From Doris montereyensis (taxonomy: Eukaryota > Mollusca > Gastropoda > Nudibranchia > Dorididae): DNA of 64,000 nucleotides. The position numbers and the translations under genes were made by a program. Location: assembly GCA_037039925.1 (NCBI GenBank), contig JAXRKP010000542.1:181001-245000 (forward strand). The letters are read 5' to 3'. Positions 26,001-56,927 of this stretch are shown here, one piece after another (within the stretch, counting starts at the first letter, position 1; each line of letters begins with the position of its first letter). The notes under the pieces were generated by a model. That model searched no databases. It was not told where the DNA came from and saw only the letters and a program-made list of their open reading frames with translations.

Positions 26001-28572
26001 TATGCGCTGCATGTAATATATTATCCTCAATTGGATATTGAAATGGACATTGAGTATATTTGCCAAATTATTGAACTGCGCAATATAAGTGCTATTTATT
26101 TTTATAATCATTTTTCCATATAAAAAATATAGATCTATTACTATTAGTAAATTCAATGTCTAATCACCTCCAAAGTTTCTACGTCCTTAAAGAAATGACA
26201 AATATACATTTTCAAGGAAAATAGTATTAATAAGTAAAACATTATTTCACATCTAATCTTACCTGCTGGTCCTATATCAAATAAAAGTTATCTTCATTGA
26301 TTTCACTTATGGTACATACATAAATGTTCATCGAATGTTCAACGTACAATTTCATGTTCATTCTTTCTACTTACACTTGTTTTGGTATAACAGCATATTG
26401 GTTTCATAGCAAATGAGTGCATTACGTTACTCCCATCTGTGGCTATAGTTGTAGTTGTAAGAAAATTTCTTTCAAGGCCCTTGTGGCCTATAGAGCCGGA
26501 GCCTATCCCAGTTTCTAAGGCGTGAAGCGAACAGGTGATGATAATTTATAATGTCCTCCTGGACAGGATGCCCTTCAGTTACAGGTTTTTTACTCCCAAG
26601 CTGTTGCTAGTATCCATCTGCACCTGGGTCGAGTGGGGAAAATTTGTGTTAAAGTAAAAATAAGTGTCTTTCCCAAGGAATACAACGTCGGGCTTGGCAT
26701 TACTAAGATTTGAACCCAGGACCTCGTGATCCCAAGTCTGGCAACCTAGGCCACCAATACGACTGCCATAGTTGTACCAAGTCTTAAATATTTAAATATA
26801 TGCTATTTTGATTATTTACCTTATTCCCTCCCCCACCTTTCTTATTTTTTATTTTTCATTCAGTGACACGCTTCCCTCTGAAAACCTTGGCGTTTTGCGG
26901 CATATTCTCAACAAAGGCAACACAACCACTTTTGAGTGGCGTACAGGGAGGGTACCCAAGGTCGTGGAAGACGTGAAAGTTTCCATTGATTTGATGGATG
27001 AGAAAGACGCTGTAGAGTCTACGGGTAATGTTTCTAGTGTTGTAGCCAGATTTAAGGGAGGTGTCGTTTTAAATTTGTAAATCTTAGACAATGCATGTGC
27101 TTGATGCGACTCAGGTTATGGTGTAAGGATCAGCACTGCCCCTAGAAAATAATGTCAATTTAGTGCTGCGGGGAGTTTGGAGGGGCGGGGGGGATCAGAT
27201 TTTTTTATTTTTAAGGAAAGGAGAAGAAGGAAGGGGGGGGGGAGAAAGAGGGGGGGGGGGGTATGGTTGTTATATCTTTTGGAAGAGTTGTTATTTTGTT
27301 TTGTTTTATTATTGGTGGGGGGGGGGATTACAATGTATGTTTATTTCTTTAGATTGGGGTTGTGGGGATTGTATTTGGGTTTGGGTTTTATTTCTAAATA
27401 AATGCCTTAGCATGGACAAATAATTGTCTTCTACAGACTTTCCTCTCATGTCTGTGTTCAGATTGTGGATGTGCATTGTAGGCAGTTGCAGGGCACTGCT
27501 AGTAGCTCTTACTTCTTTCCTTTAACTCTTTTACGTATCTTTCATTTTGCTGTTTCCTCTTGATTCACCCTGATATAACTTCGTGTGGTGGGTGCATACA
27601 TTTCAATGAAACAAGTAAACAAACAAACAAAATAGATGTCCATTATTTGTATTGTTTCATTAGATTGGGGGTTTTTTGGGGTGTTTTTTTTGTTTTTTTA
27701 TTTGAGTCTTTGTTGAAGAGTTGTTTTGTTTGAGTTGTTTTTACAATAAATTCTTATTGTAGTTTTAATTTTGAGTTTCATTGTGTTTTTTGTTGTTGTT
27801 GTCAATCTCATTGTCATGTTGTCTTTCTTTTACATGTCACTGATAGACGCCCCGCAGATATTGACTGGGGTGCAGCTGAAGCTGGTAGTGGAGACATAAA
27901 CTACGGAGATGAGATTGATTTTGACATTGGCGACATCACGATGGAAAGGGAGGGTGTTTTGTCAAGCAATGGAGAGGTTAGTAATAGCATTGCCGTACCT
28001 CTGTATCTTTAGGCATCATGTGTCTAATAAAAATAAAGTTCCTTCAAGTTCAAGGCCGTTACGGCTCATTGAGCTGGAGCTTATCCCGGTGTCTATATGG
28101 CGTGGAGCAGAAAAGATGAAAATAATCACCTTCTGGACAGGACGCTAGTATGGCGGATGTTTTTACTCCCAAGCTAGTGCTTGTACCCATTTTTCACCTG
28201 GGTCCAGTGGGGATATGCGTGTTGAGTATCTTTCCCAAGGAACACGTCGGGCCTGGCTTTGTCAAGGTTCAAACCTGAGACCCCATGATCCTCAGTCTGG
28301 CAACCTAACCACTCACCCCCTCGGCACCACATCAATTGCCTAGCACTAGCAGTAGGGCTAAGAATATTCAAATTTAGCAATCAAATTATGTTATCGTGCG
28401 AGTGTGCCGAAATACATTTATTTTCAGAGTTGTGTAGGGTATCACTATCAGTTACCTTGTAGTTGCAGAGATGTTGAGTGTAATGTTTACCAATAGATCT
28501 ACAGGCCTAGTTATAAATTTTCTTTTTATTGCTTATCTTATCATTTTGCCCAATTTGCTTATTATAAATGTC

Positions 28573-28615
<43 letters not shown>

Positions 28616-31600
28616 TATCTATTTTTATATGTATTAATAGTAATAATAATAATATAATTCATTTCTATAGCGCCCACTCCCATCTTACGACAGCTCTAGG
28701 CGCATAATATGATATAAACATGTGAATACATTGCTGTTTTATTTTATTTTTCATACTCTCATCATGAGTCATGTCATTAGGTTACGTATTGTCCTTCTGG
28801 GTTTTTTTTCCAATCTCTGTACGTTCTTGATTTGTCATCAACTTACTTCTCATACTAACTACAGTCTCATTGTCTATTGACTCATTCCAGGCAAAATTGG
28901 AAAATCCAGACATTGATGAAATCGACTGGTGTATAGTGGACGATACCGCTCTGGAGGATGCAGGAGCCTCGGACGGTAAAGACGGTGTGGCCAGTGGCAA
29001 AGATGCTCTCAGCGTTATTGATAATCCAGACACAAGAAATGCATTTATCGACGATCTGATGGAAGTAAGATCATTTACATAACTTGAATTTACTGAGTTT
29101 TTCAGGGGTTTTTTTTTTTACATTGATTTGTTTTTTCATGTATATTGTTGTGGGTGGCTAACTATATTTTAGGCCGTGAGAAAGGATTTTGATGAACAAG
29201 AGTGAAAAGAAATTAAAAGGCAATTTCTGCTGTGATTTTTACTTTGGTCACTTTCACAATTTTGAAATACAATAAGTGCATGTAGTCAACCTGTGGGGGG
29301 GGGGGGGTGGTGCTGCTCTTGGGGTCTTGTCATATTTTCACTGTTGTTGGCATGTCTTTTATCGCTGTCATTTCTCTTTTCTGTTTTGGTTTGTTTCCTG
29401 TAAGATGTTTCGTTCGGTTGTATGAAGTTTTTATTTTGTTTTAGAGATTATTTTTATTGTTTTGGTGCTTTTAGGAAGACAGATGTTTGATGAATCATTT
29501 TCTATATGAATAATGATGTTGTTGATTACCCATGGGGATAGTAATTGGGAGAAGAAAGGGACATGGGAATTTGTTTTGCTTTTTACATTTTCTTCTTCCC
29601 TTCTTTCGTTATCAGTTCCCATTATAAATACTTTCCGGTATATGGGTTTAGATGCCTGAAGTGATCTTTCTCACTCCAAGCTACCCTGTCCTGGCATTTT
29701 CTGTTTCCTTCTGTGAAAGTTAAATTTCTTTGCTTTAATGTCTATTTTATATCTTCTTCCCACTTTCTATGAGGTCTGTCTTTTGATCTTTACCTTGGGT
29801 TTTAGCTATGTAGACTGATTTAGCTATTCTATTGTCATTCATTTCGTTTACATGCCCTAACTATCTGAGTTGATTTGTTTCTATCTTAGTTTTATACCAT
29901 TTTCTTCTTGTGTGTGCAACTTAAAAAAAAATATTGTTTGGGTACCGATAGCAGCAGCTTTTGTAATTTTTCCTGAAGTTATCTGGATTTCCATTTCACA
30001 CTTTTATAGGGTTCATTTATAATTTTTTATTTGTTTCACATCAAAAGACAGTCTCACACAAAACAAACTCTTTATTGGTAAACTGGTCTATTTCACAGCT
30101 CCAGGCATTCTTCACCCAGAGAGTGAATGAGCTTTCCATCAGTGGCGGAGACGACAGTCACATGGCCTCAGCTCCCAGTGACCTTCACCTTGATTTGAAA
30201 GAGGTCCAGGTCATGCTGGTGAAGGGCAAGGTCATCCTGGACACTTTGACCTCTGTCCAGATGGAGCATTTGTTGTTGATCAAAGACTCACCAGTGTAAG
30301 TGACATTTGAAATATAGCGTTGGGATTAACATATCATAATGTATTGCTGAAAAATAATTAGAATAATACATATATAGAGAGCAAATTGTTTGATGAAAAC
30401 ATGCTCCACCTGGTAGTCTATCGAAATTTTCAGATTGTTTTTGTCAGTATTGTTTGCGTTTCTTTTTATGGCGGGTTTTTTTTTTTCTTCAGTTGTTCTC
30501 TTTTTATTGTTGTGGGGGGAGTGGGAGAGGTTCGGTTTTGTTGGTTTGCCTCATACAGGAGTTTTTTTTTTGTTTGGAGGGGGGGGGGGGTGAATGTGTT
30601 AAATCAATGCAGCCGTATTAATTTTATTCATTTATCATTAGTGGATATAATATGGTGCTGATAGCTCAGTCATTAGAGCATCTGACTACCACCTAGGAGG
30701 CTGTCGTTTGATTCCCAGTCCGGGCAAATTTTCATGGCCCTCCTGTCGACCCAGCGGCGAAATGGGTTGCTATTCAGATTGGGCAACAGTAAAGGCAGCA
30801 TGGAGAGCAATGGCAAACTACCACATTATGCCGTATGCCTGTCAAAATCAGGGCTCTACTCCTGATTACCATATGGTCAGCTCTGAGTATCAGACTTACT
30901 TTACTTTCCTTTAGTAGAATTGTCCTTATCATCATCTTTATTCTCAGCCGTCATCCATGCTGTTGTATTACCTGTGCCATGTTATTGATATTTGACATTT
31001 TCTTTTCTTACTCAGCTACGTGAACCGCCTCAAGGACTCGTTGCGACAGAAAATAGTGCTGGCCGACAAGATGGTCCTCAGCATGAAGGGAATGGCCAAC
31101 ATGGGACAGGAAGCAAGCGAAGAGGAAACAGAGTTGCACCCCTTGCTAGATGCCTTCAAAAGCAGACCAAAATTATAAAAAACAGGTACTGTAGGACATT
31201 CGGAAAATAGAAAACACCGGAGAGATGTTGTGGAGTAAACATTTGTTACAGTGGCCAATTGGTGAGACTGCCGGACTTGGGATCATGGGGTCCCTGCTTC
31301 GAATCCTGTCAAAGCCAGGCCCGACGTTGTGTTCCTTGGGAAAGACACTTAAACGCACTTTCCCCACTCGACGCAGGTGCAAATGGGTACAAGCTCTAGT
31401 TTGGGAGTATAAACATGCGTCAGATAGTGTCCTGTGCAGGAGGTGATTATTGTCTCCCTGTTCCGCTTCACGCTGTAGAAACCAGGATAAGCTCCGGCTC
31501 CACGGGTCGTTACAGCCTTGAAGGAAATTGTACTGTATTGTTACGTAAATAAGTTTCGAAGATGAGATACATTTCTTAATTCAAATAATTGTCTTTCTTT

Positions 31601-35930: not shown

Positions 35931-37315
35931 AAAGATTCCTTGGTTGTTTACAGTTACAGACAGTTCAAGCCGGGCAAATAAAAAAATCCACCAAAAACCC
36001 TGAGATCACCTTAATTGTGGATGTGGGTAAAATCAAATCAAATCAAATGTCATTCCAAGCATACTGCAAACGACATGTACTAATATAGGAAATATAAAAT
36101 CGTTGGTGCATGAGAATATTCTTAACTGTGTGCTTGCTAGTGTATTTCAATTTCAGATAGAGGGACTTGACTTAATTGACTACTGTAGATTCCCACAGGA
36201 ACGTATAGCCTTAGCAACACTCCTCCATCTGACTGGGTTCTGGGAAATACTCCTCAGTTTGAGTCATGCCAATCTAGAGGCTTCGACTTCGACTTCTGCT
36301 TTCAGTGCCATGCATGTTTGGGTCGGTTTACTTCGCCCTTTCTCTGCGGATAACAATCCAGTGTGGCTTCCTCAATGTGTGCTCAATCCAGCCCCATTCC
36401 TTCTCCCTGATTTGTCATCAGAGAGAGGGAAGAGGGTATGGCAGGTTTCACAAAATGGGCCATCCACATTTCCCTCTTTGTGCATTTTTTTCGCAGTTAA
36501 GGAAAATTATGTATTTATATCAAATTAAAGGTAAAAACCTAAGGATTGTGAATGTGTACGTGACAGAGACAGCAAATGTCCGTGCTGCGAGAAATAAGTG
36601 TTTGAAAAAGTGGTGGCTTCTGACAAGGAACACAACTGTGAGAATAGCAAATTAAGTTAAACTGTACTGACTTCTACCGACTAGACCAACTATTTAGACA
36701 TAGAAGTGACATAGACAAAACAAATAGCAGGTGACTGTACTCACAATATGTTACACTATAACAGTGAACATTTAAAACATTACCTGAAATCATGATAACC
36801 ACAAAGGAGGATGAAATAAGAAAAAAATTGATAATCCAAGGGAAATAAGTGAAGGAGATAATTTAATTACATACACACAACATTTTTAAAATGTATAACA
36901 CATCACATCCTTTGAAAGTATCCATAATGCTGGCAGGGGCTGAAAAAGATAAATAGAGAAAAATTAATGGGTAATTTGAAGGGGGTTTATTCGTTGTAAG
37001 AGTGATACCTTAAGTTGAAATACACTAAAAAGTCCTTCAGCTAGCAGAAGGCTCTTTGGATTAAATTGGAAGGAACATGACATAAGAATGTGTCAATGAA
37101 GCTGTTTCATCGTGTTTTAATGACTAATCCACAGTGGATTAAATACACTCATAAAAAATAATCTGCAATGCATTAATTACAACCATTTACGGTAAGTAGA
37201 CCAATTATATGAGATCAATCGTACATGCTGCAAGAATTCTAAATTGTACATCTGAAAACACAATCATAAGACTAATAATAAATATAACAATTATGCAGAG
37301 AAATTAAAGAGAGAT

Positions 37316-40300
37316 CTACAGTAGATAATTATACTTAAAATACGAACCACTACAAATCAAAGGAGTAGCGGCCTCTGTTGTCCACAGTGGGGGGTCAAGG
37401 ACTTCCCATTCCACCAGGTCGGGATCATCCAAAGATAACGGCCACTCATCCTTGATGGCAGGAAAAGTGTAGTGACCTCCCTGGCCCACTCATGTAGGAG
37501 ACCACAAGGTCAGCCCCCTCACTAGTGGGACTAAGGGCTGTCACCACTGTCACATAAGCGACATTTTTCCTGCCAACGCTGTGAGTCAAATAGGACATAA
37601 GAGCCCACTTGTGGCTTAACTCTACAGAAAAATAAATGTAACAAATTAATATAGTCATAAATGATATATAAAGATATGTCAATACTACAAATCAGAACAA
37701 AAAATTAAATTAACGTACATAGGAGTGGCCGTTATCTCAGTTTCCTCCTGTGCGTCAGCAAAGGCTGTGTCGAGAACACTGGGGGCACTGAAAGTAATAT
37801 GTAAAATTCCAATATAAATAAAACAAAATGAAAAAGTTAATAAATCACCTCATACTTGCTCTCCGCTTTCAAAATAGAAGCATTAAAAATAAAACAGGAA
37901 AAAAATATAAAGGTTGAAGAAAAAAGGCAAAGAAAAATAATTACCTGTTTTTCAATTTGAAAACTTCAAAGTCCAGCATACTCTTTGCTGACACAACAGG
38001 AAGGCTTGGCAAGCCGACATCCTGTACAGAAACATGCCAGCTTATGCAGCGGATGATATAATCGGCCACTCTCTCAACCTGTGATGAGGTGAAATAACTT
38101 AAGTGCAAGACGAAGCAATGGTAAAAATGAAAATATGTATAATAAAACTCTAACAAAATAATAAACAGAAGATCTGAATGGAAACAAACACAAAACCTAA
38201 AGGATAACGTTTATCTGACTCTTTACCTGGTGGAATTGGCATGTCCCTGGGACAGTAGAAATCGGTGTCTCTGGACGCTGGCGACGAACTTCCTCCGGGT
38301 CGACAAGGAAGAACTTCCTCACAAGGGTGGAAGTCTCCTTGCCCGTGGCCTGCCTCGCCCACTCAAAGAGGTCCCTAGCATTGGTCACATTCACCTGGCC
38401 ACCCTGTACTGCTAGGGCCAGCATTTGGGAGAGGACACCAGTCTCACCATCAGCCTCCCCTTGCCATGCTCCGAACCAAAGTAAACTCTTTGGACGGCCA
38501 GGCCAGAGAGGAGGCTTAGATCAGCAAAGGAACCTCGTCCCTTGTACTGCGCAGCACAACCATCACTAAAAAGATAGGCCTTTTTCAGATTTGCATTATG
38601 CTGTGTAGCATAAGCAAGAGTTGTCAAGGTGAAATGATGTACCAAATGGTAATCATGAGTGATGTCATCACTTAGGTACATCAGTGAGTGATATTGAGGC
38701 AGCCTTCGGGAGACCGAGTACAGCACAATTGGATGAAGCGTGATTTGCTTCTTTCCGAAATGTGCTGACTTAACCTCAGCATTGAAAGAGGCATTTCGGT
38801 TCTCCGCAAAGTCCATGACCATGAGCACCTCGTCTGGGAGAAAAATTCAAAGAAAAGATATTACAACCATGAAAATCATACAAGTTGGTGAGGTATGGAC
38901 ATGAAACAGTGAAGCTAACCATACCTTCCTGAAGGGTGTTCTTTAATTCCTGACATTGGTGGCATTGCCAGAAGGCGGTGAACAGATGCCTTCTGAACCA
39001 CACCCCTTTGTCGGTCTGTCCAAGTTCCCCTGAAACTCCTCTAGAAGGTCGCTGTGAAAAATATAAAGATATGCTTAGAATAGGGAGGAAACTCTCTAGA
39101 GGGTCACTGTGAAAATAGAAAGTTAGTATAGAACTGAGAAACTCCCTTAGGAGGTGGCTGTGGAAATGTACATATATGTATATATATATACACACCAGAT
39201 AGGGATTGAAAACTTGCATATATGTAAAAGAAATGAGTGACGAAAATATACTTACGACACAGTGCCTTTGAAGGCATACACGTCCACCTTATAGGAGCCA
39301 GGATCCTTGATCGCCCCCAATGTGTCCAGGAGACAGACAGCTCGAGCACCGACTTGCACTGCTCCTGAATGGATGCAACAAATCTTTACATCCATCACAG
39401 GTCCCTGATGAAATAAATTACATTTCAAACATAAAGTCTCAAAGCATTTTACAGAGGGAAAGGGGTAAAATAAATGTAAAAATATACTTGCCAGCTATGC
39501 AGTCGGGTCGAGCCAAGAGCTGCCCTCCGGCGGGCAGCACAAGACGTCCCGAGCATTTTCGTTTTCGCCCGAAACCGAGCAAGTACTGCCAGCTCTGCTG
39601 AGTGCTCGATTAATAGCATTCAATTTGTAGCTGGGGAAAAAACAATATTAAATATTTAAAACATTTGCATAAACATACATCATGTTAAAATACATATGTG
39701 TGGATGCAAGAAACATGCCCTGGAAAGAAAAAGAAAAAAGATGTTAAGAAACAGTAATAAGAAAGTATATAAAAACTAACTCACCGCACATTCAAACAAT
39801 ACATGCACAAGCATGTTTCAGGGGCCAACAGAGCCAAGCCTTTCACATTACATGGCCGTAGCTGGCAGAACAGGGTGTACCCAATTTTTGTGTCAGGGTA
39901 CTCCGCCCTGAACTGCCTAAAAGCACCACGCAATGTGAGATTCATCACATATGCTGGCCCTGCTTTTGGTGGTGTACCTCTTGTGAGGGAGACGGCGACT
40001 CACGTCCAAATCGGGTGTGGAAAATCTTAGAGGGGAAAAAAAGAAACGAAAAAATGGTAGAGGGACAATACCATAAGTATTGGACTTCCAAGTAATACAT
40101 GATATATTGCATGTTAACAGATGTTATAAAATGCTTTTTTGTGTGTTGTGGTGTCACGTACCTTTACCAGGATTTCAAGGCTAGACCTGGCCTGCCTCGC
40201 AGGTGTCACCCTCGGTGACTTCTTCAGCTGATTTACAACAGTACTTGAGGGTGACCTCTTGGCCGTAGCCGGGAAGAGTTGCTTGCGAGGCGAGACCAGG

Positions 40301-41750
40301 AATCCTAGTTTCCTGAGTGCCTTCCTCTTCTCAGGCGTCCGAGGGTTGCCAGGTTCTTGACGACACGAGCATACGTACGAGGCGACGTCCGCCTGCTCAG
40401 TGTCGCCTTCAAAATGTGTGTCAAATTGTAGATTGTTTTTAGCAACCTCCTCGAGTCTTGGTGGATGGGCCAGGCGAAGAGTCAAGTGCTGGAAGGGGAG
40501 TCTGTAGGGGTGCTGGAAGTGGAAGGGGGTCAGTAAGGGTACTGGAAGTGGAAGGGGGTCAGTAGGGGTACTGGAAGTGGGAAGGGGTCAGTAGGGGTAC
40601 TGGAAGTGGAAGGGGGTCAGTAGGGGTACTGGAAGTGGAAGGGGGGGTCAGTAGGGGTACTGGAAGTGGAAGGGGGTCAGTAGGGGTACTGGAAGTGGAA
40701 GGGGGTCAGTAGGGTACTGGAAGTGGAAGGGGGTCAGTAGGGGTACTGGAAGTAGAAGGGGGGTCAGTAGGGGTGCTGCAACGGGGGGTGGAATGGATCC
40801 TGGAACTGGAGTTGGAAGAGGTGCTGGAAGGGGGTCAGTAAGGGCGCTGGAAGTGGAAGGAGTCCAGGAACAGGGGATGGATGGAAGGGGCGTTTGAACG
40901 GGGATGAAAAGGTACTGGAAGGGGCGCTGGAATGGGGAACGGTAGGGGTGTTGCAACGGCCTTCTTGGTCGAGGCGCGGGTGCACGACGGGTACGGCTTG
41001 GGCTTTTCTTATTCTTTTATAGCGTTGGTTTTTCTCCCGTATCCGTCTTTTCTTTTGTGCACTCTGCCGAGCCCTAGATTCTGTCCGCAATCTGAAAAGA
41101 CAATGATTAAAAAAAATATCTGAAAACAACATCTCAATATTTGCCACTCACATGATTATATTATAAAAACTTCAATAAAGAAAGACATGACATACATGTA
41201 GCAAACTGCCCATATATACAAGGGTACAGTGAGAGTTAACACAGAAATATCGTCACAACATACCTATTCTTATGAAGTCGGTATTCTTCAGGTGTCATGT
41301 CCTTTGAGCGTTTCCCCAATGCCTGATGGCTGGACTTCCTCAGGCGCCCACACGCGGACCTTGTCTTCTGTTGCTGCCCCACCCTTCTTTTTGTAGTAAT
41401 ACCGCATGGTACGTATGCTGTTGTAAAACAAGATGAATGTGTTAAATATTTTAATAAGGCGAGTAATGGCTTAGTATTTTCACTGCTAGTATATGTGGAA
41501 TGAAACAAGCTCAAAAAGAAGCTGAGACAAATAAATAATTTAAAAAATAAACATTTACACTTTCTACATACCGAGCCAGTTCAGCTCCCTCTCGTGCTCC
41601 TGTTCCATGGCTCATGTGTGCGGCTCGTTGAGCCACTTCCCCCGTTTTTTCAGTCTCCTGGCCGTTGCTCTCTCCCTCTCCAATCTTTTGTTTTTCCAGA
41701 AAACTTTCCAAGTCATCTTTCGAAAATCCTGGAAGTCATCTTAAAATTAA
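37316..41750 (-). CDS. Multi-exon DDE-like gene, probably transposon-derived
   Basis: Exons in transcript order, approximate at the first, are 41750-41572, 41417-41264, 41091-40162, 40025-39785, 39630-39492 (GC donor), 39404-39256, 39051-38925, 38833-38227, 38078-37945, 37787-37719 and 37621-37316. The N-terminal exons are basic (RTESRARQSAQKKRRIREK). Next come DTKIGYTLFCQLRP and CLCMYC, then a Cys cluster CIAG followed by TCDGCKD across an intron. The core is VLMVMDFAENRNASFN, ITLHPIVLYS, YLFSDGCAAQYKGRG and VYFGSEHGKG, then VTNARDLFEWARQATGK. The spaced Asp residues (MDFAEN, SDGC, and one after HGKG) suggest a DDE nuclease fold; this is inference. The same architecture occurs in many uncharacterised, multicopy invertebrate proteins. 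At least seven frame slips are present, mostly at homopolymers. It could be a domesticated gene or an intron-bearing transposon. Confidence 0.62.
40495..40785. repeat. 29-bp minisatellite inside the DDE-like gene
   Basis: About ten copies of a 29-30-bp unit, CTGGAAGTGGAAGGGGGTCA plus GTAGGGGTA, lie in the 930-base third exon. On the minus strand they encode Pro/Phe-rich repeats such as LLTPFHFQYP. Unit length is not a multiple of three, so copies shift frame against one another, and G-run length differs between copies. Confidence 0.85.
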
Positions 41751-42439
41751 AAAAATAGATATTAGAAAACGGACTTAAATCTTTAAGGAACTGTTCAAAG
41801 AATGTTCTGAATTTATTTTATATCTATAGCCCCCCCCCCCCCCCCCCCCTTTCATTCTGTTTTGGGCTAATGCAGTCTGGAAGTCATCTTCAAATTTAAA
41901 CATCACGGCTAAACTCTTAAGGAACAATTCAAAGAATATTCTGATTTTTATTTCTAATTCAGAACTAGATCTAAGTATGCATGAGATAAAAACAAAATAG
42001 CCCCCCCCCCCTCATTCCAGTATTTAAATGCATTCCAATTCCAGTTACGTATAAAGCATGTGGTATACATGTCTCTCTACAAAAATAAAGTTTTACCAAA
42101 TCATCTTCAAAAACTAATCTATTTAATTTCCAAACTACCTAGATCTAGCAACAGGATGCCATAATCCCAAATAAACAATAGTTAATATTTGTTTAGAAAC
42201 GTTTGGCCAGTACAAACACACACAACACTCAAACATGTACACACACACTCGCCAACACACGTGGTCTTGAAGGCTCAACAAAATCAGGAAAATAATTGTT
42301 GTAGGGCACCACACGCGACTAAAGTAACAACTTTGCGATAAACTAAGAAGAGCCCAGGTCTAGTAATCTAAAATAGCGATGTTGGTTGAATTGAAAACCA
42401 ACGACAGCGTACTACGCTTGTAACGATGTCCTTGTGGGA

Positions 42440-43120
42440 CCAGAAAAAAGATCGCTACATCAGAAGTAAATTACAACCGGTGGAAGACAAATTCAAGGGA
42501 AATAATCCCTTTATAATTATAACTTTACTGAACAATTATTATTGGGTTACTTCCCTCACCTGGATAACACGTCGTGACCACGTGGAAATACACTGTATTA
42601 TTGTAATACTAGCCTACACACACATTGTCATAGGGCGCTAAGCTGCTAAAAATAGACACAATTGAGCGGACTCTTCACGTGTGCTGTGAAATGTATTGGG
42701 CCTAGCATAGTAATAGTATGCTGTCGACTTTAGGGTAGGCCTAGTAGTGTAGGGTTGAGTCTATAGGCTAAGCAAAGTGGGCATAATAATTATTGTACAT
42801 TGGTAGGCCTACACTACGCATACCAGTCAGCAGTCAGTACTGTGTGCTTGTACATTGCACATCGTTAGGTCAAAAATAATCACGGGGAAAAAAATCCTTA
42901 CATCCCTTGTCTTTTTACTACGTACATGTATAAACTTTAAGGGCCGGTGATAAGAATACACTTCACTACAACCGTCACGACGGATGTAGTGAAGTCAATA
43001 CAACCGTTTGATTTTTACTGAGTTTTTGTGACATCGGTGCCCGTTCCAGGAAGGGAAAAAGATTGCTACATCCGAAGATCTCTACAACCGACTTCGCTAC
43101 AAGTGGAGTCGACTGTACAA
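42440..43120. repeat. Repeat with CTACATCxGAAG...TACAACCG ends
   Basis: AAAAAAGATCGCTACATCAG with TTACAACCGGTGG (42443) recurs directly as AAAAAGATTGCTACATCCGA with CTACAACCGACTTCGCTACA (43058). It ends AGTGGAGTCGACTGTAC, which resembles a pogo/Tc1-type terminal. Low confidence. Confidence 0.3.
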
Positions 43121-44019
43121 CTTAGTACAAGTATAATGCGCACATATTGTCCAAACTCATAAGTCAGCATCTCTACTTTCACTCGTTCACATGCTAGCTT
43201 AGATCTCTGGGTGCTCATGCTCCAGTCTAGTCTATCTCTACTTTCCCCGTCACAAAGACTCTTCTCCAATGCTGATGGTCGCCCGTCTAGCGTCTCTACT
43301 TTCCTACGTCAGCACAAAGACTCTTCTCCAGTGCATGGTAAGCCGTCTACTAGCCTCTACGTTCCCCGTCCGCACAAAAACTCGTCTCTTTTGCTGATGT
43401 CCACTACACTCCGTGTGTCTACTAGCTACAGCCATTCCTATTTTCAACCAGTGCCTTGTTAAAAACTTCTCATTAATTCAACAGTACACCATTTATCTTG
43501 AAATTCTCACACGATATTCTTTAAAGTACTAAATATTTTTTGGTTACCGCTAATCATGCCTTTACAGCATGGAAATGCCTTTAAATGACTCCTAGATCTA
43601 AACTTGATCACATTGTCAAATCATGAGGATGTGTGGCTGGATGGAGTCTTCCAATTAAAAAAACTCATTTAAAGTTGCACAGAATCACAAAAATACTTTC
43701 CTTTCACAACAGAATGGAATTTCAAATGAAAATGGTGCGTGGTCGATCTGGCTCATTTGACAGCTTGGAATGGAATGAACAAGATGATGGCCGACCATCA
43801 GGTTATATAGTCATCCTGGGTAATGTCTCTTTGACATGGGGGGACAATATTTTTTACAAACTATCATATCAATCTTGATCGTTTTTCAACATAAATGAAT
43901 GTAAAAATGCACTCTTCTTCCTTTTTCAGTAGAAAAACGGGGATTATAAGATGGATTTATATCATTTTTCCCATGACGTCAGGTCTATTTAAAGACAGAC
44001 ACTCTTACATCCGCAGCGT

Positions 44020-44388
44020 AGCAAATTAAATTTCCCACGTGGTCACGATGAAACAAAGAAATCTTTCCTTCACTCTAAAAATCAATCAAGCTTCCCTCTT
44101 TGCTCAAGCAGAAATAATCAAAATTTGTAGGGTCTCCCTTGCCAGTTGTCTGACAACGTCTGAAAAGAGGGAAATACGGCAGTCTCGATTCCTGACGTTC
44201 GTGACACAAAGCACAGCACAAAATGTAATCAAAAGTCATAAATTTTATGTTTGTTAATATTTGAAAACCAATTCTTCTAAACACATGGTAAAAAATTCAA
44301 GGACATTCATTGATCCTGCTGTGAAATAGAAGCAATGAGAAAGTTTCTAGTTATCTTGAGGACCCATTTTTGCTTTTTGAAACCTGCC
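44020..44388. repeat. Related right-end copy of the GGCAGGTTTCAC family
   Basis: This stretch is similar to 12240-12606 in the same orientation: GAGGGAAAT, AGTCTC, CTGACGTTCG and the terminal GAAACCTGCC all recur in order. No coding region is seen. Confidence 0.5.
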
Positions 44389-45040
44389 ATGTGCATACTA
44401 ATGATACTTCTTGAGCAAAGCTTTCCAAAAATAATCAGGCTAATTGGAGGGGAGAAAAAAGGCTTCCCAGACCCAGATTGTTGATGTGGTGAAAGTGTTC
44501 AGCAGACATAAATCAAGACCATCATTCCATTCTGGTTACCATACTCTGAAAAAGAGACAATTCCAAAATTGATGTCTACCATTTCAAGATTTGATGCCAT
44601 GTGGAAAGAATAGAATTTCATCCTCCAAGGTCCCGAAGATCTTGCCCATCACACCAAGGGCCCAGACTTGAGCCATTATTCCTTCATTTGATAGGTCTTT
44701 GGCAAGACGGTATTGTAGAGACTAGAAGTCCACCTAAGGAACATGAACATATAAATATGGTTCAGCTGAAATTTGCACAAGTTTTGCTTCAATTCTTGTA
44801 CTGGATTATTAAATAAGTTTTCCATTTTTTTAAAAACATCAACAAACAAAAGATTTAATAAACAAAACAAAACAAAAAAAACACACACACAAATGACAAT
44901 GTCTTTTAGTAGGCACTTTCACTTTCATTAAGTCTACAAATATTTTGTCGCTCACTAAGACGAGTCGTCTGATGTCAGAAGAATGATATTTTCCTACTTT
45001 GGAAACAAAATCTTTGGACACTTTCAGGTGATATCGGAGT

Positions 45041-55558: not shown

Positions 55559-56927
55559 ATGATGATCTTGGCCTATTTCATCTTCATAGCCTTGGCTATC
55601 TTGTGCCTGCTTTTCCAATACTGGGCTCATCGGACACGTCGTAATGTCAACGTGGGAAACAACCCCAGTTCATCAAGTTTCAAAGAGGCTACTTTGCCGT
55701 TTACTTGGTGGCCATGTTTGCAGACTGGCTGCAAGGCCCCTACTTATACAAACTGTACAGCTATTATGGTTTCCATGAACAGCAAATAGCTGTCCTGTAT
55801 GTCTTTGGATTTGCAGCATCTGTTATTTTTGGAGCATGGACCCCAATAGCTGCGGGTCAGTTTGGCCGTAAAAAGTTGTGTATCTTCTTTACCATTGCTT
55901 ACTCAGTATCATGCATGTTGAAGTTGTCTCAGAGCTATGGCATCCTATTGATTGGACGGCTGGTGGGTGGACTTGCCACATCAGTTCTTTTTACAGCATT
56001 TGAAGCCTGGTATATCCATGAGCATTTAGAAACACATGACTTCCCCAAGGAGTGGATTCCGATTACATTTCAGAGAGCCTCTATGTGGAATGGTATACTG
56101 GCTGTGTTGGCAGGAATCACGACCAATGTTTTTTCTGAGTGGATCGGTTTAGGTCCTGTAGCTCCATATATGATGGCAGTGCCATTTCTTATTTTTGTTG
56201 GGGTCATCATCTCAACGCACTGGAATGAGAATTACAGTATGCATAAGGTGAAATTCAGTGGATTGTGCTATGAAGGACTTCGTGACATAGTCTCAAATAA
56301 AAGAATTTTTGTCATTGGAGCCATGGAAGCACTCTTTGAAAGTGTAGTGTATATTATCATCTTCTTGTGGACACCAATTCTTGAGCCTGGAAAACCGTCT
56401 CTGGGGATCATCTTTTCCTGTTTTATGATCTGCATCCTCATTGGACAGGCAGTGTTTCAAATTTTGTCATCCAGAGGCATCCCCATCACAAAATCCTTCT
56501 TTTTGTTGTCATTCTTTCCCTTGTGTCGATACTCACTTGTGTTTACTCAACTAACCCACATACTCGTCACCTCAATGCTTCGCTTATTGCTTTCTTGTTG
56601 TTCCAATTCTGTGTAGGTCTGTACTTTCCAGCTATGAGTGTTTTGAGGGTGAGAGTGATTCCAGACATGCACCGTTACGCCATCATGAACTGGTTTCGTG
56701 TTCCGTTAAATCTCATCTCCTGCGCTGTACTTATGTTACTTCATGAGGATGTTTTCTTACATGGGAATTACCTCATCCTTTTGGTGTGTGTTGGCCTTCT
56801 CTCTCTCATGTTGTTAGCGACACTCCAATTCATGAAGATGCCTCTATCGCAGGAGGAGCTGGATGAGGAACAGGGAAACAAAGACATGTTGCTCATGGAA
56901 TCTGAACACATTCACAATATCTTTTAA
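55559..56927 (+). CDS. MFSD5: MFSD5-like major facilitator transporter, single coding exon (two apparent frame breaks)
   Basis: MFSD5 is a 12-helix plasma-membrane carrier of the major facilitator superfamily, linked to molybdate uptake. The reading covers MMILAYFIFIALAILCLLF (first helix), ADWLQGPYLYKLYSYYGF, LYVFGFAASVIFGAW, GRKKLCIFF (the loop 2-3 signature area), FEAWYIHEH, WIPITFQRAS, WIGLGPVAPYM, ALFESVVYIIIFLWTP, then GLYFPAMSVLRVRVIP and NWFRVPLNL. The frame slips at 55663-55666 (CCCC) and again at 56500-56504 (TTTTT). One extra base at each gives 457 codons including stop; the human protein has 450 residues. An AG acceptor at about 55507 after a T-rich tract suggests a 5' UTR intron, with the first ATG at 55559. 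The rest of the sequence is well conserved, so it is probably functional. Confidence 0.9.

Follow-up and report, generated by a model that had tools for sequence, protein, structure and literature searches.

The question raised by this locus is what kind of gene lies on the minus strand at 37345..41740 of a 64,000-nucleotide stretch of the nudibranch Doris montereyensis genome (contig JAXRKP010000542.1, positions 181,001 to 245,000; hereafter the window, whose own numbering is used throughout). We consider it very probably the broken transposase gene of a decayed autonomous cut-and-paste DNA transposon, most like Sola. That the element is a cut-and-paste transposon of the DDE/D type is almost certain. 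Its assignment to a named group, Sola and within it subgroup Sola2, is probable and was made from published descriptions only. The reading draws on features of the sequence: defined ends, copies that keep their introns, 4-bp duplications around relatives, conserved aspartates and a broken frame.

The gene comprised 11 exons and ten introns of 87-204 bp, with an uncertain start of exon 1. Because all ten introns have GT-AG (nine) or GC-AG (one) borders, at most 4 bases from those initially read, the eleven-exon structure proposed in the initial annotation is sound, and the motifs named there were present at their places on the minus strand. CLCMYCLN (39813-39790), CIAG (39501-39490) and TCDGCKD (39402-39382) mark a cysteine region (39382..39813) that we infer to be a metal-binding N-terminal part; cysteine 381 of P0001, a sea-slug relative discussed below, was invariant in 11 proteins and nearly invariant in 21. 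Exon 3 (40163..41090) encodes the basic stretch of the N-terminus (LRTESRARQSAQKKRR...); after it comes a proline-rich minisatellite (40490-40778, period 29 bp, 9.9 copies) with stop codons in all three frames. A similar array of 6.7 copies was seen in the C2114 copy. Exon 8 (38226..38833), the predicted RNase H-fold catalytic core, contains MDFAEN (38816-38799), SDGCAAQYK (38567-38541) and HGKG (38468-38457), and its Asp codons lie at 38813-38811 (MDFAEN), 38564-38562 (SDG) and 38451-38449 (EADG). Exon 11 (37345..37621) encodes the C-terminal domain, which is beta-rich in the structural model of P0001, where strands between residues 814 and 876 match this region.

Seven frame changes were found, one each in exons 4, 5, 6, 7 and 8 and two in exon 11. 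Together with the minisatellite stops they lead us to regard the window gene as broken. No Pfam model scored above cut-off in four pieces of the window gene, the one match being at chance level. Assembly errors in a gene that the living animal keeps intact seem a rather improbable source of the frame changes. Two points favour such errors: the exon 8 change, between HGKG and EADG, adjoins a run of G, and at this place the frame stays open in the C2114 and C309 copies. However, the changes are scattered over six exons, and the C3463 copy has the same HGKG break, consistent with inheritance of the change, although a homopolymer error might also arise twice.

The gene is only part of a larger element, a fact that, like the broken frame, went beyond the initial annotation. 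Homology to other copies, in a BLAST comparison with eight fetched loci, stopped at 36437-36485 on the low side and at 44369-44392 on the high side; the low-side limit in C2114 and the high-side limit in C3463 fall at the ends of their contigs. An inverted repeat of 17 nt (36438-36454 with 44374-44390, 94% complementary) is found at these boundaries. The terminal inverted repeats (TIRs) were placed at 36440..36463 on the plus strand (GGCAGGTTTCACAAAATGGGCC..., read inward; gene 3′ side) and at 44359..44388 on the minus strand (inward reading GGCAGGTTTCA...AAAAATGGGTCC; gene 5′ side). The latter end was also found in C2114, C1707, C2657 and six complete non-autonomous copies; at the low end C1707 was without the outermost bases and C3463 without the outer part. 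The whole copy spans 36440..44388 (minus strand). Its 7949 bp include about 720 bp (42403..43125, no strand assigned) that were inserted later, are lacking in the C2114, C3463 and C2657 copies and are possibly another small mobile element. A unit of about 230 bp near the gene 5′ side was single in the window (42042-42270); in C2114 and C3463 it forms tandem arrays of at least five units (L025 5571-6914 and L026 1536-2698). In C1918 (L027), portions of exons 1-4 were present about three times, as blocks matching 39823-40386 and about 40960-41708.

The element is repeated in the genome (513 Mb, 3500 contigs). Its 126-aa core gave 25 six-frame matches on 18 contigs, and positions 37300-39300 used as a DNA query gave 16 matches, the window's own being included in both counts. 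Among the DNA matches were five other copies, 89-95% identical to the window across exons and introns. The core matches, with the 23 protein relatives described below, put the gene far above what chance would produce. In the eight loci, pieces aligned by BLAST outside simple repeats were mostly 83-93% identical, the high side of C2657 being 75% identical; C1707 and C2657 have internal deletions. An origin by retrocopying or segmental duplication alone was rejected, since the copies keep their introns and have common ends. The initial annotation had suggested a transposase lineage with introns, or a domesticated one. The first suggestion is borne out by the intron-bearing, multi-copy distribution and the shared ends. 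The second, that such a transposase became a host gene, is highly improbable: ten introns with usable splice borders speak for it, but there are seven frame changes, the introns and ends recur in other copies, and the gene is enclosed by inverted repeats of its own. An intact frame, a single copy and no TIRs of its own would mark a domesticated gene, and we rejected that identity on finding the reverse of each.

A large set of sequences shares only the ends. Searching with the low end (36438-36700) yielded 590 first-look candidates, of which 40 were scored, and 41 matches were listed; 28 of these 41 comprised the terminal 41-45 bp alone, at 93-98% identity. Eleven of the 28 were fetched, together with C1455, a longer match, and ten of the eleven were extended, C3081 being left out. 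The far end, identified by its resemblance to the other end of the window copy, was reached in six of the ten and was not found after extension in C69, C195, C36 and C843. The six complete non-autonomous copies measured 854-2120 bp. What BLAST showed them to share with the window element was the ends and two further stretches, 20 and 40 bp long; its transposase probably mobilised them. In all six (C3107, C2823, C10, C1698, C1802 and C3435) the terminal motif, GGCAGGTTTCAGATTTT or near it, also recurred internally in inverted orientation, 338-365 bp inward of the right end.

The same six copies provide the target-site evidence. Perfect 4-bp duplications flanked four of them: C2823 (TTAT/TTAT), C1698 (AGAT/AGAT), C10 (AAAT/AAAT) and C1802 (ATAT/ATAT). 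In C3435 (ATAT/CTAT) and C3107 (TTAT/ATAT) three of four letters matched. This makes 22 matching letters out of 24, a match equalled in 12 of the 720 re-pairings of the six flank pairs; the window copy and C2657 stand outside this count. With the inverted repeat, these flanks bear on the question of repeats and duplications around copies that the initial annotation had raised. Two other readings of the junction, with AT as a 2-bp duplication or with ATGGCAGG as the start of the element, were rejected, as TTAT/TTAT, AGAT/AGAT and AAAT/AAAT require 4 bp. A de novo search for TIRs with a perfect 4-bp duplication at 12 loci (eight distant members and four nearer ones) found none at ten and one candidate at each of the other two, neither with the TIR of the window element.

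From these features a cut-and-paste cycle may be proposed. The basic N-terminal and cysteine-rich, metal-binding parts of the transposase would probably bind DNA. The RNase H-fold core, with its D-D-D triad, would bind divalent metal and cut and join DNA, and the C-terminal beta-rich domain would complete the enzyme. The transposase would bind the inverted ends (GGCAGGTTTCAC...) and excise the element, which would then be joined to a staggered, AT-rich 4-bp target, giving the 4-bp duplications. The large non-autonomous family, retaining just the ends, was probably mobilised in trans.

Relatives were sought with a read-through protein carrying X at each frame change; 7992 candidates were scored and 23 proteins matched, with E-values down to 3e-119. 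They came from the sea slugs Plakobranchus and Elysia, the clam Mya, the sea spider Nymphon and unnamed sources, and Aplysia was added by a second search. Among the nearest were P0001, P0003, P0007 and P0009 from Plakobranchus and Elysia, 39-48% identical over 62-89% of the query. These four bear the name “(S)-beta-bisabolene synthase”, which is likely a propagated annotation error; the sea-slug proteins so named are predictions of 446-893 aa in which the frame changes of the window gene are absent. A search with the full alignment profile gave just four matches and was probably swamped by N-terminal words. Two relatives, P0002 and P0015 (the latter named VRTN-like in NCBI), showed an OTU-like protease stretch after the cysteine-rich part, with sub-threshold Pfam matches only (E 0.13 and 0.0063). 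Among viral contigs 27 pattern matches, and among prokaryote contigs 40, yielded no confirmed relative, both searches being of limited sensitivity.

More distant proteins were reached through P0021, which was linked to the window gene by sequence search (E 1e-22). As a query it matched 888 proteins, and among the 120 listed the named ones came from arthropods and Hydra. One of this kin, P0030, carries the UniRef name “Cc8L18.2-like protein”, after what we take to be a Cotesia bracovirus gene; “Cc8L18.2” was not found in the literature searched. P0021, P0030 and their kin had the core motifs DFAEN, HP, SDD..HD, DG..QYK and HGK..DG in common with the window gene, and SHGKS.CDG.GGTVKR where the window family has SEHGKGEADGETG. 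In a core tree drawn with a midpoint root, the window sequence fell, together with eight sea-slug proteins and four rows of unnamed source, in a clade of 13 rows supported at 99/96, and the P0021 class with P0023 formed a separate branch (98/96). No Pfam model scored above cut-off over the core of ten relatives or of three P0021-class proteins; apart from an unrelated fused MULE/ZSWIM part in P0006, the ten gave weak noise.

These results bear on the superfamily name. A cut-and-paste transposon of some other DDE/D superfamily, perhaps unnamed and including the “Cc8L18.2-like” proteins, is possible if doubtful, and would contest that name only. In its favour are the lack of a Pfam model at cut-off over the core in the relatives, the P0021 class and the four window pieces, and the great distance of P0023 and the P0021 class from the mollusc clade. 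Moreover, 4-bp duplications occur in superfamilies besides Sola. Against it, the DDD triad, the AT-rich 4-bp duplications, the TIRs and the size all agree with Sola. The name of P0030, presumably bracoviral, points the same way: a passage in PMC7822920 places elements derived from Sola2 in the wasp Cotesia and in segments of its bracovirus, describing Sola2 elements as abundant in the wasp and a bracovirus gene family as miniature inverted-repeat transposable elements of Sola2 origin. It is unlikely that the mollusc clade is a separate unnamed superfamily or a distinct division of Sola. Its marks would be the introns, the basic N-terminus, the C-terminal beta-rich domain and the OTU-like insert of P0002 and P0015, and its widespread arthropod and cnidarian relatives would be unnamed or misnamed in databases. 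“Sola2”, “OTU” and “transposon” were not found together in the literature searched.

The initial annotation had also read the core as an RNase H-fold nuclease, and structural models of two homologues agree, the predicted fold being recognised by VIA-align and by its topology. Across 17 proteins D540 and D661 of P0001 were invariant and D623 nearly so. In the P0001 model, D540 lies at the end of beta1, D623 after beta4 and D661 in the last helix, as expected of a DDD triad. The homologue models share the predicted fold and the positions of the acidic residues with retroviral integrase cores and the Mos1/SETMAR transposases, the structurally aligned sequences being about 6-13% identical. Whereas the third acidic residue of the triad is Glu in retroviral integrases, it is Asp in the window family. 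No rve or mariner Pfam match was obtained over the core in the four window pieces (E<=10) or the ten relatives (E<=1), and no PDB chain was matched by sequence. A viral structure library gave one match at E<=0.001, a phage terminase, of no help for the fold question. A remote kinship to retroviral integrase or Ginger may exist.

Several observations weigh against the reading as a decayed cut-and-paste, probably Sola-like transposon. No complete intact copy was present among the window and the eight copy loci read. The window copy itself is flanked by GTAT (low) and ATGT (high), without a perfect duplication, and C2657, whose terminal bases are altered, by ATGC/ATGT. C1802 was inserted into a sister copy, and its joined flanks are, by eye, two bases longer than the sister sequence, so it offers no clean empty-site proof. 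For the first model Foldseek found nothing in the PDB at E<=0.001, the best match being a SPARTA Argonaute chain at 1.4e-3; for the second it found two matches at this level, the best being NurA at 7.9e-4 with a TM-score of 0.13-0.14. Finally, amoebal Sola2 elements are described in part of PMC3627910 as having TIRs of 12-21 bp and AT-rich 4-bp duplications such as ATAT, AAAT and ATTT; to this AWWT rule AAAT and ATAT conform, but TTAT and AGAT do not.

Elsewhere in the window, open frames of a multi-spanning transporter, presumably MFSD5-like, were seen at 55645-56927 and are probably a real host gene. Other dispersed repeats at 28049-31534 were common to the neighbourhoods of C1707 and C2657.

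The initial annotation knew no named superfamily for this gene and suspected an undescribed system, a view that the likeness to Sola does not support. A passage in PMC10741241 gives Sola a DDD transposase, 4-bp duplications and a length of 2-9 kb in most cases, with TIRs of 11-1124 bp, the group having been described by Bao et al. 2009, as cited in a passage of PMC4455052. The Sola label is applied because the triad, duplications, TIRs and size fit this description. Like Sola2, the window element has a predicted catalytic DDD triad of conserved aspartates, short TIRs and a size of 7-8 kb, and its non-autonomous relatives show AT-rich 4-bp duplications; its gene, unlike Sola2, carries ten introns, and TTAT and AGAT occur beside duplications of the AWWT type. 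Among the molluscs analysed in a bivalve-centred survey, Sola was reported only from bivalves in the relevant part of PMC10294476, where open reading frames of at least 300 aa were classified; an intron-rich transposase would, we infer, often escape such a survey. In the literature searched, “Sola2” occurred with “gastropod” only there. Systems of this kind are already known; new here is a clade with introns, common to gastropods, whose ends are defined and which has a large non-autonomous family. An element so defined, by ends, duplications and gene, lets unnamed or misnamed invertebrate proteins be recognised as transposases. If the Sola label is true, a clade that includes gastropods (Plakobranchus, Elysia and Aplysia) widens the mollusc range of Sola beyond bivalves.
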